Source of the DNA: a virus
Virus record (IMG/VR): IMGVR_UViG_3300025736_000052
Coordinates: 1-45,463 of that record
Reading direction: 5' to 3' (one strand)
Length of the DNA: 45,463 nucleotides
The position numbers and the translations under genes were made by a program. Positions 17,540 to 24,354 of this stretch are shown here, piece after piece. Below the pieces are notes generated by a model, which worked only from the letters and a program-made list of their open reading frames with translations, did no database searches and was not told the origin of the DNA. How positions within the stretch are numbered: the first letter of the stretch is position 1; each line of letters begins with the position of its first letter.

Positions 17540-17983
17540 ATGGGTGTTCATTTTGTACCCGATGCGTATACATACGCAACCTTTGAAAAAAGGTGGGATT
17601 CAGACGGTAAAGTATTTCACAATGCCATAGCTCATGATGCTCTTACAGCTAAGACTCCTTATGGAATCATAGCGAATGAGTATGGTCCCGTGTCAGAAGC
17701 TTTACCTGCTGCCGATAAGTACATCTATGTGGGTGTACCAACAGAAGCTGTTGCCAGCGGTGTTAACTGCTGGTTGCAGATCGGTGGATATATTACAGCA
17801 GTAATAAGTACGGCGTTGACCGTGGCCCTTGGTGATGGTTTTACCATAAATGCAGGAGCCGTGGCTGATATTGCAGCGGCTTATTCCGGGGCGGCAGGAG
17901 AATTTGCCGTAAATGCTGGTACTGCGGGTGCTTCGACAACTCACGCAATGATACTGGTGCCCGAACAGATCATAACTATATAA
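17540..17983 (+). CDS. Capsid decoration-type protein, copy 1
   Basis: Length 147 residues behind AGGAGG. Starts FVPDAYTYATFEKRWDSDGKVFHNAI; the rest is Ala/Gly-rich beta (ALTAKTPYGIIANEYGPV). It is a tandem paralogue of the next gene (FVPDAYTYASFQPRYDSNGKVF, TLTAKTPVGVIYNEYG). Two copies right after the coat gene suggest capsid cement or decoration proteins. Confidence 0.65.
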   Translation: MGVHFVPDAYTYATFEKRWDSDGKVFHNAIAHDALTAKTPYGIIANEYGPVSEALPAADKYIYVGVPTEAVASGVNCWLQIGGYITAVISTALTVALGDGFTINAGAVADIAAAYSGAAGEFAVNAGTAGASTTHAMILVPEQIITI

Positions 17984-17993
17984 GGAGGATGAT

Positions 17994-18446
17994 ATGGGTG
18001 AATTAACTTGTTTTGTACCCGATGCTTACACTTATGCCTCCTTTCAGCCAAGGTATGATTCAAATGGGAAGGTGTTCATAAATGCCATTGCCGGAGATAC
18101 GCTTACTGCGAAGACCCCTGTGGGGGTGATTTATAATGAGTATGGAGCTGTAACTCTGGCCTTGGCGGATACTACACTTTATTACAGGGTTGGGGTTCCG
18201 ATAGCCGGTGCTGCTGCTGATGCTAGCGTGTGGTTGCAGCATGGTGGTTATATCACTGATGTAGTCACTGCAAGCATTACTACAGTTGTGGGCTATGGGA
18301 TTGAAATACATGATGGTACTGTTGCTCTGGTTTCAGCCGATTATTCAGGCGTAGACGCAGAGTTTGCAGTATGTACGGAAGCGTCTGGCGCAAGCACGAC
18401 CCATGAGTTGATGCTTGTACCAAGATTAATACTTTCGTCTTCGTAA
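17994..18446 (+). CDS. Capsid decoration-type protein, copy 2
   Basis: Length 150 residues. Paralogue of 17540-17983: same N-terminal FVPDAYTYA.F motif, same LTAKTP.G.I.NEYG segment, and both end in the run GASTTH.(M/L)(I/L)LVP. Ten bases separate the genes, with an identical AGGAGGATGATATGGGTG-like start region. Confidence 0.65.
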   Translation: MGELTCFVPDAYTYASFQPRYDSNGKVFINAIAGDTLTAKTPVGVIYNEYGAVTLALADTTLYYRVGVPIAGAAADASVWLQHGGYITDVVTASITTVVGYGIEIHDGTVALVSADYSGVDAEFAVCTEASGASTTHELMLVPRLILSSS

Positions 18447-19241: not shown

Positions 19242-19553
19242 ATGGTGTTAGAAATTCAAGAACGGTTGGGAATCATGGGACTTTTAGGCCAAGAGGGGAG
19301 CGTGGCTTTCCTTAAGGCTAAGAGAGATATTGTGTCAAAAGTTGGGTTGTCGGCTGACGAGATCAAAGAGTTTGAGGTTGTTGTAAAAGACGGCAGCACT
19401 GCTTGGAACCCCGAAAAGGCAAAAGAGAAAGATATTGAGTTCACTGGTGGGGAAATAGCCATTATGGTAGATGCACTAAAAGCATTAGAAAAAGAAGAAA
19501 AGCTACTTGAACACCAGCTCTCGCTCTACGAGAAGTTTGTAGAAGGAGGTTAA
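19242..19553 (+). CDS. Hypothetical protein, 103 residues
   Basis: AGGAGTGAGAG site. Helical ends and a central FEVVVKDGSTAWNPEKAKEK; the C-terminus KALEKEEKLLEHQLSLYEKF could form a coiled coil. Similar small helical proteins with an E(I/V)..G....W(N/D) core occur in phage structural regions. Role unknown. Confidence 0.6.
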   Translation: MVLEIQERLGIMGLLGQEGSVAFLKAKRDIVSKVGLSADEIKEFEVVVKDGSTAWNPEKAKEKDIEFTGGEIAIMVDALKALEKEEKLLEHQLSLYEKFVEGG

Positions 19554-19554
19554 G

Positions 19555-19881
19555 ATGCCAGCACACAGAGAGGCACAGGGAAATGAGACACGGACATCGG
19601 CAGGCAGTACTACTTTGATAGATATTTCTGACCATGGCACTCGACTGAGGCTTAAAACCCTTGTGGTCGGGATTTCGGTGTTTGCAGGTTCAGGAAAGGT
19701 AGAAATTACCGATGGTACTACAACCTACTTCGCATGGGAAGCAATAACAACGGGGGGAGGACAACCTCCTTCCGTTAATATTCCTGATGGGTTTGATTGG
19801 GGAGCTAACAAAGACATTATCCTCACGACTACAGGAGCAATTACAGTTCATGCGGTATGTACGGCTGAAGTGAGGGGGTAA
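19555..19881 (+). CDS. Tandem 110-residue structural paralogue 1 of 3
   Basis: Starts MPAHREAQGNE. The family pattern is LIDISDHGTRLRLKTLVVGI, ITDGTTTYFAWEA, QPPSVNIPDGFDWGANKDIIL and a final AEVRG, all beta-strand-like. Three consecutive genes share it. Position before the adaptor suggests virion fibre or decoration proteins. Confidence 0.65.
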   Translation: MPAHREAQGNETRTSAGSTTLIDISDHGTRLRLKTLVVGISVFAGSGKVEITDGTTTYFAWEAITTGGGQPPSVNIPDGFDWGANKDIILTTTGAITVHAVCTAEVRG

Positions 19882-19882
19882 A

Positions 19883-20224
19883 ATGCCCGCTCATAGAGTA
19901 GCACAAGGGAATAAGGGCCGAGTCGGTGGGGCAGGTGTTGGTACCGCTACCCTGATCGACTGTTCGGGCTATGGCTCACGGCTAAGGATTAAAACATTAT
20001 GTTGTTCTATTGCCGTGTTCGCCAATGAGGGTTTGATAGAAATTACTGACGGCACTACCACCCATTTTTCGTGGAGTGCTGACGACAATCAGGGGGCGGG
20101 AAAACAACCGCCATGCCTCAATTTCCCCGATGGTTATGATTGGGGTGATGGTCTTGACGTGATTCTAAAGACCACAAATGCCATTACAATGTGGTGCATA
20201 GTAGTGGCGGAAGTGAGGGGATAA
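19883..20224 (+). CDS. Tandem 110-residue structural paralogue 2 of 3
   Basis: Starts MPAHRVAQGNKG; shares ATLIDCSGYGSRLRIKTL, ITDGTTTHFSW, QPPCLNFPDGYDWGDGLDVIL and AEVRG with its neighbours. Its stop overlaps the next start by one base (TAATG). Confidence 0.65.
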   Translation: MPAHRVAQGNKGRVGGAGVGTATLIDCSGYGSRLRIKTLCCSIAVFANEGLIEITDGTTTHFSWSADDNQGAGKQPPCLNFPDGYDWGDGLDVILKTTNAITMWCIVVAEVRG

Positions 20225-20577
20225 TGCCCGCACATCGTGTGGCTCAAGGTAACGTATACCTTCAGGGAGACGGTTCTGCGACCATCATTGACTGCTCCGA
20301 CTATGGAGATAGGCTTAGGCTGAAAACATTGGTGGTAACTTTCTCTCTTGTGCTGGTGAGTTATTCGGTGGAGGTTACAGACGGCACCACGACCATATTC
20401 CAGTGGGAGGCAAAGGCCGGAAAGCTGAAACAACCACCGTGTCTAAACTTCCCCGATGGTTACGATTGGGGAGCAGGGAATGACATTATTCTGAAGATAG
20501 AAGCTCCGCCAACAAAAGGCGGCCCTGCAATATTTGTTTATGCAATAGCTGTGGCTGAAGCAAGGGGAGAGACATGA
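20224..20577 (+). CDS. Tandem 110-residue structural paralogue 3 of 3
   Basis: The ATG at 20224 was chosen because MPAHRVAQGN matches the other two starts. Shares ATIIDCSDYGDRLRLKTL, VTDGTTTIFQW and QPPCLNFPDGYDWGAGNDIIL (copy 2 has the same QPPCLNFPDGYDWG). A small insertion lies near the C-terminus (PPTKGGP). Confidence 0.65.
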   Translation: MPAHRVAQGNVYLQGDGSATIIDCSDYGDRLRLKTLVVTFSLVLVSYSVEVTDGTTTIFQWEAKAGKLKQPPCLNFPDGYDWGAGNDIILKIEAPPTKGGPAIFVYAIAVAEARGET

Positions 20578-21863
20578 CCTTAACAAAAATGATTACAAGG
20601 ATACGGCAACGCTCACGGACTGGTGAAGATTTTGTTCCTGCTGCTGTTATTGTTGATAGAATTAACGAAGCAATGACTCAATTATCCAAAGATATGGGCG
20701 GGCTGGTTAAAGAAGCTTACCTCGCACTTACACCAAAGTTTGACCTATCCACCCATCATGCGTTTAATATCACAATAGTGGGTGGAACAAATGCGCTTGT
20801 GGCGACAGATATTCCGGTAACTGATGTTTCCGTGAACGACCAGACCGGAGCAGAAACAGCCACCGAGTTACAGGAGCGAATACGGGCAGCAGGCCCTACT
20901 ACGTTGACGGTAGCATGGAGTGCGTCTACCTATAAGTTCACGATAGATGGTGATGACTGTACTTCGATGACGATCGCAGCTCCCGTTGGAGCGAATTATG
21001 CGGATGTTACGGATCTGTTATTTGCCAAAACTGGTACAGAAACAGCCCTAACCTGGGTGAGCAATATTCCACAAGATTGTATGCTTGAGGTAGATCTCCC
21101 ATCTGACTTTTTAAGGATCAAGGCGGTAGAATGGGACAGGAACCCCTTAAGCCCGGCTCCATTTGATCTGTTTGTCTCACCGCAAGCAAGCGGTGTACCG
21201 TGTTACTATCAGATAATGAACAAGAAAATGAGGGTAAATGCTATACCCACTTCTCAAAAGTTATTTCATCTGTTTTATAAATATTTACCAGCTACGATTA
21301 CTCCCGCATATCAAGAATGTGGGTTATCTTCCAAAACCACAGCTACCGAAACAGGGCTTGCGGCTACAACCCAATACTATTTCAAAATCACAATTGATGG
21401 CGGAGCTGAGACTGAATATGACATTACTACTGGTGCAAGAACAACTTTTGCTCCAGTTATAGTTTTGTTGAACGCAGAAGCCTTGGGGTGTACTTTTACT
21501 ATTACCGGCGGAGATTTGAGATGTACTTCATCTGCTGGTGGTCCCGAATCTTCTATAGCCCTGGCTGCTGGTACTACGGGAACTGACTTATTTGTTACTC
21601 TTACTGGTTGGGCGGCTTTTGATACTGCATATTCGGAGCTTCAAGATGAGATAGCGATAGAGGCAGAAATAGAAGATGCAATAATATTTTACGCAACGGC
21701 TTTACTATATGAGGATGCGGCAGATTTAGCAAAAGCCAATTACTTCAGGGCCAGATATGTTGTGGCTAAGAATGAGTATAAACAACAATTAGGCAATCAG
21801 AACCCAAAGTTCCGGACTTATACGAAAGGAACAATTAGAAAGGATTACCGGGTAATAGTTTGA
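20574..21863 (+). CDS. Head-tail adaptor with inserted beta domains
   Basis: Length 429 residues. N-terminus MTLTKMITRIRQRS...AVIVDRINEAMTQLSKDM and C-terminus EIEDAIIFYATALLYEDAADLAKANYFRARYVVAKNEYK are the helical ends of podovirus-type adaptors that dock on the portal. Between them sit two beta-rich stretches (about 60-165 and 250-355) with Thr/Ala-rich repeats that look like inserted Ig-like or carbohydrate-facing domains. The usual adaptor is about half this length, so the insertions are notable. Its stop overlaps the remnant at 21860. Confidence 0.65.
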   Translation: MTLTKMITRIRQRSRTGEDFVPAAVIVDRINEAMTQLSKDMGGLVKEAYLALTPKFDLSTHHAFNITIVGGTNALVATDIPVTDVSVNDQTGAETATELQERIRAAGPTTLTVAWSASTYKFTIDGDDCTSMTIAAPVGANYADVTDLLFAKTGTETALTWVSNIPQDCMLEVDLPSDFLRIKAVEWDRNPLSPAPFDLFVSPQASGVPCYYQIMNKKMRVNAIPTSQKLFHLFYKYLPATITPAYQECGLSSKTTATETGLAATTQYYFKITIDGGAETEYDITTGARTTFAPVIVLLNAEALGCTFTITGGDLRCTSSAGGPESSIALAAGTTGTDLFVTLTGWAAFDTAYSELQDEIAIEAEIEDAIIFYATALLYEDAADLAKANYFRARYVVAKNEYKQQLGNQNPKFRTYTKGTIRKDYRVIV

Positions 21864-21895
21864 AAACTTCGAGTATCATTGACGGCAGGGGCGGG
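21860..21895 (+). pseudogene. Remnant second copy of the tail gene's N-terminal codons
   Basis: From the TTG at 21860 the frame reads (M)KTSSIIDGRGG, matching MKTTSLIDGRSG at the start of the tail gene at 22444, but with many silent base differences. It overlaps the adaptor stop as a translationally coupled start would. The open frame continues to 22447 but loses all similarity after these 12 codons. Confidence 0.6.
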
Positions 21896-21945
21896 GTTGA
21901 TAAATTATTATTGGTTTCCGGGGAGGGGTTGACAAATTATTATGG
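21892..21945 (+). repeat. Two direct repeats carrying -35 boxes
   Basis: GGGGTTGATAAATTATTAT starts at 21892 and GGGGTTGACAAATTATTAT at 21925, 33 bp apart and differing at one base. The second holds the TTGACA of the HNH-gene promoter. Confidence 0.6.
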
Positions 21946-21957
21946 ATGTGATATAAT
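21929..21957 (+). promoter_or_regulatory. Consensus sigma-70 promoter of the HNH gene
   Basis: TTGACA (21929-21934), 17 bases, TATAAT (21952-21957): perfect consensus. The HNH ATG at 21966 is nine bases past the -10 and has no ribosome site, so its transcript should begin at or within a few bases of the start codon. Confidence 0.8.
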
Positions 21958-21965
21958 GATTAACT

Positions 21966-22493
21966 ATGAAACATACATGGATATTCAGCGTACATCCGAA
22001 CAGCAAGGCTCTTGTAGCAGAGGAACGCCCCGGCCCTCTCGATACTTCTTGTTGGGTAGTAACCAGTCATGTGCCATGTGGAAATGGTTATATTTTTATT
22101 GGTTTCAACCCACGGCAATTGGTTTATCGTGCGGTTTACGAAAGAGAGGTAGGCCCAATCCCCGAAGGGTTAATAATAAGACACAGATGCGACAATCCGA
22201 AATGTGTCAATCCCGATCATCTTTTAACAGGAACCAAGCAAGACAATACACAAGACATGATAAACAGAAAACGCCACAAATATGGCGAAAAAGCTTCTTG
22301 GTCAAAATTAAACGAAATTTCTGTACGATTTATTCGGCAGTTAGAAAAAGCACCAGGAATATTTGCCTATCTTGCTTGTCTTTTAAATGTATCAGAAGCA
22401 ACTATCAGAGATGCCTATTATGGCCGAACATGGAGGCATCTCAATGAAAACAACGAGCCTAATCGACGGAAGATCGGGATATTATACAGATGA
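21966..22493 (+). CDS. HNH homing endonuclease
   Basis: Length 175 residues. The core at about 51-103 reads QLVYRAVYEREVGPIPEG, then IIRHRCDNPKCVNPDHLLTG and KQDNTQDM, the classic phage HNH homing nuclease with C75/C80 and H73, N82, H85 near the metal site. Residues 112-157 form a helix-turn-helix (WSKLNEISVRFIRQLE..PGIFAYLACLLNVSEATIRDAYYGRTWRHL) of the kind that reads target DNA. It sits between the adaptor and tail genes, overlaps the start of the latter by 50 bases, and has its own promoter. Confidence 0.88.
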   Translation: MKHTWIFSVHPNSKALVAEERPGPLDTSCWVVTSHVPCGNGYIFIGFNPRQLVYRAVYEREVGPIPEGLIIRHRCDNPKCVNPDHLLTGTKQDNTQDMINRKRHKYGEKASWSKLNEISVRFIRQLEKAPGIFAYLACLLNVSEATIRDAYYGRTWRHLNENNEPNRRKIGILYR

Positions 22494-24354
22494 AGCTTAC
22501 GAGCTTATTCCGAGGAATGGTCTCCTCACGGCTGAAAACTGCTATTGGCGAGATGGCCTACAGCAAAGAGGTGGACATAAGCCCTATGGCACCGCAACAT
22601 ACGCAGTCAATGATGTGGTCCGTGGTGTATCACAAAGATACTATATTAATGATGCTTGGGTAAGCTTCGAGGCTGTAGATGTTGCCCTTGCGGGCAAGGT
22701 TAGATTCTTTTGGCGGGCAACTACCGGGCTGACTGCTGTAGACAATACTTTTGAATGGACAACCGGCTTAGAGGTGCACTTCGCAGAAATTGATGGCCAT
22801 ATTGTAGCGGTGAACGGAGAGGACAAACCTGCTGTGATCTACTATGATGGTGCGTATAAAATACAGAATCTTGAAGCCCATGATGTTCGGACAAGAAGCA
22901 CTACCACCTGGAATGCTGGACAGTATACGGAGGTCGGTCCGGTATGGAGAGACGACACTACTGACGCTCAGGATGTGGGTGTGAATGACTTCCAGATAAC
23001 AACCGCAACCGATGATGATGGGTTCTTTGTAGCCTGTACGCATACCTTCAACAAAGTGATCGTGGTAGACGCTACGGCTGCCGCCGGTGCGCCAGCAATA
23101 GAGTATAGATATTATACAGATGCTGGGGCATGGGGTACTCCCGTGATGGTAACTACACCAGACTGGACCGCTGCTGAAGCAAATAGAACTATTGAGTTTA
23201 ACTATCCTAGTGATATGGGTAGATATGATGGTGCAGAGAGCGTATTGGCTAACAGGTTCTTGCTAAGGGTGCGCTTCACGACTGCTCCCACCGGAGCGGT
23301 AACGGCTGACTCTATGACTGTTTACCACACACAATATATTACTCAGATAACCGGAACCGATCAGCCACACTTTGTTTTGGCACATAATAGCAGGATATGG
23401 TTGGCAACAGGATATATTGTGTTCTATTCGCCACCCAACACGGTGACTGGTTGGCGAGGTTTGAGTGAATCCGAATACTTTCTTGAGGGTGGGCCAGAAG
23501 TTAGGTCTATGGTATCTCACAAAGGCTATCTTGTGGTGTACAAGGATGCAGCCACCTATGTATTTTATGGCAATTCGCTTGAGTCATTCTTGCGTAAAAA
23601 GGTATCTGATGTAGGTATCGGTACGGGTATACGTTCTCCGGTATCTGCTGAACAAGCTTATTATTTAAATCAGAACGGTTTGAGGATGTTTGATGGGGCA
23701 AAAGATATAGTTGTGAGCAAGCATATTCAAACTGATATTGACGGATACACCAATTCGAGTGCTGTTGCAACATATTACAACGGAGAGGTATGGTTATCTT
23801 TCCCGGATGATAAGATTGTGCTTGTCTTTGACCCTGCCACGATGAAAGTAGACGAACAGACAGGGGATGGGTCGGTCGCTTTCTTTAAGTTCACCGGCTT
23901 CCAGGCTGATTATTTTATCAACTGTAACGGCAGCGGTGACACTGGATACTTTCTAGCTGTTGTTAATGATACGACCCCCTATGTGGCAAGGCTTGAAAAT
24001 GGTACGAATGATGAAATAAGAGATACTACTGTAGTGAATACCGACTATAATATAATGACTAATTACTTGGCCTTTGTAGATTTCCAGACCGAAAAACGCT
24101 ATGGAATATTGAAGCTGAAACTTAAAGAGGCCACAGCAGAAACCATCTATGCTATTACCCTCAGTGCTGACGGTGGTGAACGTACTGCCTCTGCAAACGT
24201 AACTGTTGCCCTTGGCACACGCTACTACAATAGTATCAGCAGAATACCATATACCATAGATGGATATAACATAGCAATACAAATCCGCAATAACCAATTA
24301 CAGGATGCTGGAATGAGGGGTATTTCTCTGCAATACGAGAAGAAGGAGTTTTAA
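22444..24354 (+). CDS. Tail nozzle/stabilisation-type protein
   Basis: Length 636 residues. The ATG at 22444 follows GGAGG; in-frame codons upstream belong to the HNH insertion. MKTTSLIDGRSGYYTDEAYELIPRNGLLTAENCYWRDG is the N-terminus of podovirus tail tube or nozzle proteins (T7 gp12/P22 gp10 role), followed by many beta-propeller-like repeats (HIVAVNGEDKPAVIYYDG, LVVYKDAATYVFYG, YYNGEVWLSFPDD). It extends the portal-adaptor channel. Codes for its start are duplicated at 21860. Confidence 0.72.
   Translation: MKTTSLIDGRSGYYTDEAYELIPRNGLLTAENCYWRDGLQQRGGHKPYGTATYAVNDVVRGVSQRYYINDAWVSFEAVDVALAGKVRFFWRATTGLTAVDNTFEWTTGLEVHFAEIDGHIVAVNGEDKPAVIYYDGAYKIQNLEAHDVRTRSTTTWNAGQYTEVGPVWRDDTTDAQDVGVNDFQITTATDDDGFFVACTHTFNKVIVVDATAAAGAPAIEYRYYTDAGAWGTPVMVTTPDWTAAEANRTIEFNYPSDMGRYDGAESVLANRFLLRVRFTTAPTGAVTADSMTVYHTQYITQITGTDQPHFVLAHNSRIWLATGYIVFYSPPNTVTGWRGLSESEYFLEGGPEVRSMVSHKGYLVVYKDAATYVFYGNSLESFLRKKVSDVGIGTGIRSPVSAEQAYYLNQNGLRMFDGAKDIVVSKHIQTDIDGYTNSSAVATYYNGEVWLSFPDDKIVLVFDPATMKVDEQTGDGSVAFFKFTGFQADYFINCNGSGDTGYFLAVVNDTTPYVARLENGTNDEIRDTTVVNTDYNIMTNYLAFVDFQTEKRYGILKLKLKEATAETIYAITLSADGGERTASANVTVALGTRYYNSISRIPYTIDGYNIAIQIRNNQLQDAGMRGISLQYEKKEF

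Follow-up and report, generated by a model that had tools for sequence, protein, structure and literature searches.

Two diverged copies of a tail-gene start on either side of an HNH gene

The window analysed here is the whole of a 45,463-nucleotide viral DNA (IMG/VR record IMGVR_UViG_3300025736_000052, positions 1 to 45,463), and the region of interest comprises the following features, all on the plus strand.

20574..21863, plus strand: gene for an SU10-type adaptor, or head-tail connector (Pfam SU10_adaptor PF24175, E 1e-6)
21860..21895, plus strand: left start copy, TTG followed by codons for KTSSIIDGRGG (from the sequence)
21860..22447, plus strand: open frame, 195 codons long, that begins at the left start and spans the entire HNH gene, offset by 2 from the HNH frame (ORF list)
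21893-21911 and 21925-21943, plus strand: imperfect direct repeat GGGGTTGAYAAATTATTAT
21929..21957, plus strand: putative promoter, an exact match to consensus TTGACA-17-TATAAT with a TG-extended -10 box
21966..22493, plus strand: HNH endonuclease gene with an HNH_3 core at residues 55-95 and a C-terminal TWRHL motif (PF13392 and PHROG matches)
22432..22436, plus strand: GGAGG Shine-Dalgarno sequence of the tail gene, at a spacing of 7 to ATG 22444 and within the HNH tgg-agg codons of the TWRHL motif
22444..22479, plus strand: right start copy, ATG followed by codons for KTTSLIDGRSG (MKTTSLIDGRSG), its DNA about 64% identical to the left copy
22444..24354, plus strand: tail gene, 636 aa, intact behind the element (ORF list)

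The sequence-only reading had described a duplicated gene start around an HNH gene, with one copy at a TTG overlapping the adaptor stop and a second 584 bases further on behind a GGAGG, and our analysis confirmed these coordinates and features. The adaptor stop TGA (21861-21863) shares bases with the TTG (21860-21862) as TTGA, and the left start is separated from the right start at ATG 22444 by 584 bases. The gene at 22444..24354 is presumably a tail gene, judging from its position beside the adaptor, and searches of Pfam, PHROG, INPHARED and IMG/VR returned no relative of it. The locus has the layout of a mobile ORF with a duplicated gene end, in which two diverged end copies flank an endonuclease ORF and one of them belongs to an intact gene.

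Over the 33 bases that follow each start codon, the two copies match at 21 and differ at 12, with 8 of the differences at third positions, while 8 of the 11 encoded residues are identical; when 12 differences were placed at random, that many residues were kept in 0.085% of trials. The description of a nearly conserved protein with silent base changes is thereby upheld. When the right peptide was compared without gaps against all six frames of the window, the left copy ranked first (score 44; next best 23), and a degenerate pattern for both peptides matched a single stretch among the 2.9 million contigs of IMG/VR, namely the present virus with both of its copies. A separate IMG/VR contig is 100% identical across the junction over 11,908 bases, which makes an artefact of a single assembly unlikely.

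The product of the intervening ORF belongs to the HNH_3 family (PF13392, E 3e-13, 49.5 bits against a curated cut-off of 24.8) and also matches phrog_1872 (E 3e-24) and phrog_59; a PDB sequence search with this protein gave no match. Most homologue matches end at about residue 159, at the TWRHL motif and just before the tail ATG. The HNH frame itself runs on to 22493, with its last 16 codons overlapping the tail gene over 50 bases. The HNH gene does lie between the two copies, as had been claimed, but the right copy is not simply placed behind it. The HNH ATG follows the -10 box by 8 bases and has no Shine-Dalgarno sequence, an arrangement from which a leaderless or near-leaderless transcript off the consensus promoter would be expected. 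The -35 box lies in the second copy of GGGGTTGAYAAATTATTAT, a repeat found only at these two places in the window where 0.02 copies are expected. The window contains one further exact TTGACA-17-TATAAT, at 2761-2789 on the minus strand.

Elsewhere in the window, tandem paralogous head/neck genes were observed at 17540-17983 and 17994-18446, together with related ORFs within 19242-20577 that share an MPAHR.AQGN start. The peptide SKNAVVDGNKG is encoded near both window ends (~73 and 45384, minus strand), which suggests a terminal repeat and hence a complete circular or terminally redundant genome.

The left-start frame is open through the HNH gene

The frame that begins at the left start contains no stop until TGA 22445-22447, where it overlaps the tail start by four bases (ATGA). 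Given the same HNH amino acids, the probability of such an open frame is between 4e-9 (genome codon usage) and 1e-7 (the gene's own usage). The stop-making wobble positions in the left frame carry T in 0 of 34 cases and C in 20 of 34; elsewhere in the HNH gene, wobble T is found at 21 of 40 positions before other purine-first codons and at 28 of 56 before pyrimidine-first codons. In four other genes of the phage, T accounts for 34-43% at stop-making junctions, and in the other genes tested the equivalent frame is never open for more than 65 codons. Among about 85 HNH relatives, the equivalent frame is open in only one (P 0.004). Since the frame is stop-free beyond chance and avoids wobble T exactly where it would make stops, its openness has evidently been kept by selection.

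The TTGA and ATGA overlaps at its two ends further suggest that the open left frame couples translation of the adaptor to that of the tail protein, although this arrangement is known from one sequence. The proposal that the insertion had interrupted an old translational coupling is not borne out by this frame, which traverses the HNH gene and terminates on the new start; adaptor-tail coupling looks preserved instead.

The layout recurs around other HNH endonuclease genes

Our searches for an HNH-free relative of the adaptor/tail junction found none in INPHARED phage records (tblastn with the tail protein, the adaptor, a 1164-aa tail protein, the portal and the major capsid protein, MCP) or in IMG/VR (scans with MCP, terminase, tail and adaptor, plus the N-terminal degenerate pattern). 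The sole sequence in either collection that reaches the junction is the identical contig, and the relatives found through MCP (L006 and L007) stop short of it. Because the collections hold no relative of this junction, we examined whether the layout recurs at other HNH loci by searching 124 non-redundant loci for short peptides in the left flank that are related to peptides in the right. A complexity filter was added because low-complexity, GC-rich frames had spoiled the first control (10/308); the filter also drops two loci, L050 and L126, which are counted only as probable.

At a score of at least 45, a recoded duplicate gene end was present on both sides at 8 of the 124 HNH loci and in none of 1,500 permuted flank pairs. 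Control ORFs of the same contigs gave 8 matches in 633, of which four are the tandem head paralogues of the present phage, three proved to be HNH endonucleases themselves (L150, NUMOD4 + HNH_3; L183, HNH_3 + HTH; L157, phrog_374 HNH, E 3e-55) and one fits neither group. A simple Fisher test at score 40, made prior to inspection of the control matches, gave P 0.003. The flank similarities at L047, L061, L084 and L172 fall inside the permutation range or close to it, and we do not count these loci as cases.

The cases fall into two classes. The 5'-end class has a short start, presumably a relic, on the left side of the endonuclease, with the intact gene beginning on the right side:

MazG-like gene (L117): relic MDLNDYQDKAMSYRLEV then stop; intact gene beginning MNMNEYQDKALSFRLES
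Thymidylate synthase (L150): relic KMDLKPVYIEAIDIPDAW then stop; intact gene beginning KMNLKPIYIEATTIEDAW
Terminase (L157): relic MKTLDFARAQIRFDKRSCN then stop; intact gene beginning VKTLDFARRHIAFNKSS
L151
Tail gene of the present phage

In the 3'-end class, the intact gene end lies to the left and a presumed relic end to the right:

Helicase (L046)
UvsX-like gene (L119)
Tail protein (L140)
L132
L028
Portal-like gene (L050), probably

DNA identity between the end copies is 54-67%, except at L119 (90%). The four other 5'-end cases that were examined all share four bases, ATGA or GTGA, between the stop of the endonuclease and the rescued start. The present phage differs in that its HNH frame passes the tail start and the left frame gives the ATGA; coupling is judged uninterrupted because the left frame supplies the overlap that the endonuclease stop supplies at the other loci. 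The recurrence of relic end, endonuclease and recoded end, with the host gene left whole, lends partial support to the earlier suggestion that the element arrived with its own version of the gene start and kept the tail protein intact, whereas the interrupted coupling that formed part of the same suggestion finds no support.

Several of these loci have features of their own. At L157 (4372-5135), an HNH gene of another family, phrog_374, lies between the relic and the intact start of the terminase large subunit, so that the layout extends beyond a single HNH family. At L046 (4690-5342), the HNH gene that follows the helicase seems to be broken by a frameshift at a run of GGGGG, reflecting either decay or a sequencing error. 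At L119 (2941-3657) and L126 (2788-3483), the HNH gene continues in frame into the relic copy, which provides its stop codon. Among 122 HNH loci, a downstream ATG with a Shine-Dalgarno sequence was found within -60 to +30 of the HNH stop at 31, in 25 of them at or before +5; HNH C-terminal codons thus often double as the ribosome site of the following gene. Relatives of L046, L157 and L150, sought at the DNA or protein level for evidence of polarity, yielded no useful match, and the MazG gene of L117 has many relatives, none of them more than 60% close.

A partial parallel in Kayfunavirus

Related HNH genes are located between genes 15 and 16 of Kayfunavirus, where the Shine-Dalgarno sequence and ATG of gene 16 lie within the HNH C-terminal codons. 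CR44b, EPr2, UKE1 and ST20 share a gene-16 start unlike that of the HNH-free phages K1F, SH3, EcoDS1, ST66 and pO91, while the encoded protein is nearly the same. Compared with the HNH-free type, the CR44b gene-16 start is 63-67% identical over the first 60 bases and reaches 97-100% by about 450 bases, a gradient as would be expected of a conversion tract. Two phages do not fit this pattern simply: HC13 has the HNH-type gene-16 start without the HNH gene, and in GA2A the HNH gene is present but the start differs. The HNH-free 15/16 junction with the HNH-type start in Escherichia phage HC13 (L097) could mean either that the gene was lost or that the allele is a resistant one. We rejected this T7-like case as a full parallel, since no relic start is present.

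Proposed insertion of a homing endonuclease with a built-in recoded rescue

An HNH_3 gene lies between diverged copies of a gene start, the right copy heads an intact gene, and the layout recurs at the ends of core genes. We consider that these observations are best explained by insertion of a homing endonuclease that carries a built-in, recoded rescue of the gene it enters, a reading to which we assign a probability of roughly 0.68, with both the insertion and its polarity presumed from context. The left copy (21860..21895) is probably the old, native start. According to this proposal, the HNH endonuclease, whose activity is putative, would cut the conserved tail-gene start in phages that lack the HNH gene, and repair of the break from a diverged donor would import the HNH gene joined to the donor's spelling of the start codons, leaving the old start on the left as a relic. 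The donor spelling would keep the tail protein and should no longer be cut, and the donor copy would be too diverged from the relic for recombination to remove the element.

The same proposal would account for expression of the region. Ribosomes leaving the adaptor would restart at TTG 21860, traverse the HNH gene in the silent frame and restart at the tail ATG, so that the structural operon would stay coupled. The endonuclease would be made from its own consensus promoter as a leaderless or near-leaderless mRNA and would stay quiet on the long transcript, because its gene has no ribosome site. A broader generalization, which we offer tentatively and hold at a little below even odds, is that phage homing endonucleases are commonly natural cut-and-rescue elements at conserved core-gene ends, and that here one stretch would serve both as an endonuclease gene, read from its own promoter, and as a silent ribosome bridge on the structural transcript, with the bridge frame kept open base by base.

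The orientation of these events could in principle be reversed, as illustrated by the mycobacteriophage ShiLan, in which a hidden HNH insertion in a DNA methylase gene leaves the host frame open and the first 11 residues of the insertion copy its 3' flank at 66-68% DNA identity (PMC11855218). The right flank of the ShiLan insertion matches the uninvaded Akhila, Dorothy and Bobi, and its left copy does not and is therefore foreign; because ShiLan's foreign copy is the left one, polarity in the present phage cannot be assumed. Applied here, the ShiLan polarity would make the right tail start native and the left copy a foreign sequence at the front of the element, by which translation from upstream would meet familiar sequence and continue through an element that is open in the upstream frame, as ShiLan also is. 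We regard this as unlikely, though it is one of the two stronger competitors. A left copy at a gene start rescues nothing, both in L117 and in the present phage the left start overlaps the stop of the preceding gene in a way that looks native, and the open host frame of ShiLan is barely unusual (P 0.027) against 1e-7 here. The other stronger competitor, which we hold to be similarly doubtful, concerns the open frame alone: it may encode a selected overlapping protein of 195 aa that begins like the tail protein, with coupling as a by-product. Avoidance of stops is expected of any selected frame; the left-frame product is, however, rich in R, S, Q and C and resembles an overprinted frame, and the exact ATGA ending suits coupling.

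Explanations that dispense with a rescue fare worse. The phage does carry tandem duplicated head genes, and the two starts might have arisen by tandem duplication of the junction in place and then diverged, the HNH gene having come in by a separate or later event. This is quite improbable, since the shared segment spans only about 12 codons at 64% identity and its changes are mostly silent, a bias not to be expected in a new duplicate that is not translated, and since end copies recur among the 124 HNH loci and the non-paralogue control matches are nearly all HNH genes. Removal of the stretch between the copies by a self-splicing intron or by translational bypass would likewise join the left start to the body of the tail gene, and resemblance of the 5' end to the 3' exon is on record for group I introns (PMC11855218), but the right copy comes with an ATG and a GGAGG of its own and an open frame is not required for an intron, so we give this very little credence. 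No Rfam family was matched at E up to 5 over 21500-22900, and a group I or II intron was accordingly rejected as a candidate. Chance resemblance of two start regions, conceivable for copies of only 11-12 residues, is refuted for practical purposes by the score of 44 against 23 in the window and by a pattern that matches nothing else in IMG/VR.

Comparison with known systems

Insertion with a built-in rescue would explain how a carrier survives when a selfish gene lodges within one of its indispensable genes. Its signature, short recoded end copies flanking an ORF, picked out HNH endonucleases even among control genes, and the protected second frame provides a concrete test of operon coupling kept across an insertion. 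In a search of the open-access literature, no account of phage endonucleases rescuing a gene with a recoded end came to light.

Among phage elements, ShiLan shares with the present locus an HNH gene in one frame, an open host-side frame in another and an 11-residue copy of the 3' flank. It differs in that it is inserted inside a gene and is read through in frame, with the foreign copy on the left and an openness hardly beyond chance, whereas here the left frame terminates and the tail gene restarts at its own ATG. The T7-like free-standing HNH genes (gp2.8/gp7.7 type; Kayfunavirus CR44b and EPr2) resemble ours in their HNH proteins (37-41% identical), in insertion at a gene junction and in a diverged gene-16 start, but they have no relic start copy and their HNH stop lies 16-18 bases past the gene-16 start. 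The mob and seg genes of T4, as presented in the excerpt of PMC2988022, are HNH or GIY-YIG genes between phage genes that overlap upstream stops, spread by break repair with co-conversion and cause marker exclusion; that excerpt describes no duplicated recoded gene end and attributes control of expression to hairpins, not to a silent frame.

The closest counterparts of the rescue itself come from fungal mitochondria. In Glomus, endonuclease ORFs in atp6, atp9, cox2 and nad3 carry a foreign C-terminal end while the native end persists as a relic; the atp6 copies are 63.5% identical in DNA and 91% in protein, and Allomyces atp6 was the first case of a mobile ORF with a duplicated C-terminus (PMC3630166). 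These elements share with ours a free-standing endonuclease ORF in a core gene and a foreign end copy that keeps the gene intact. They encode LAGLIDADG or GIY-YIG enzymes and occupy 3' ends in mitochondria, whereas the present element is an HNH gene at a gene start in a phage, with a four-base stop/start overlap and a protected second frame. A parallel also exists with recoded-rescue gene drives: in engineered home-and-rescue designs, such as HomeR (PMC7968924), a nuclease cuts a core gene and the cassette restores it with a recoded end that is not cut. Such drives are engineered and CRISPR-based, and the analogy is one of logic only; within that limit, the HNH layout described here suggests a natural counterpart of engineered cut-and-rescue elements.
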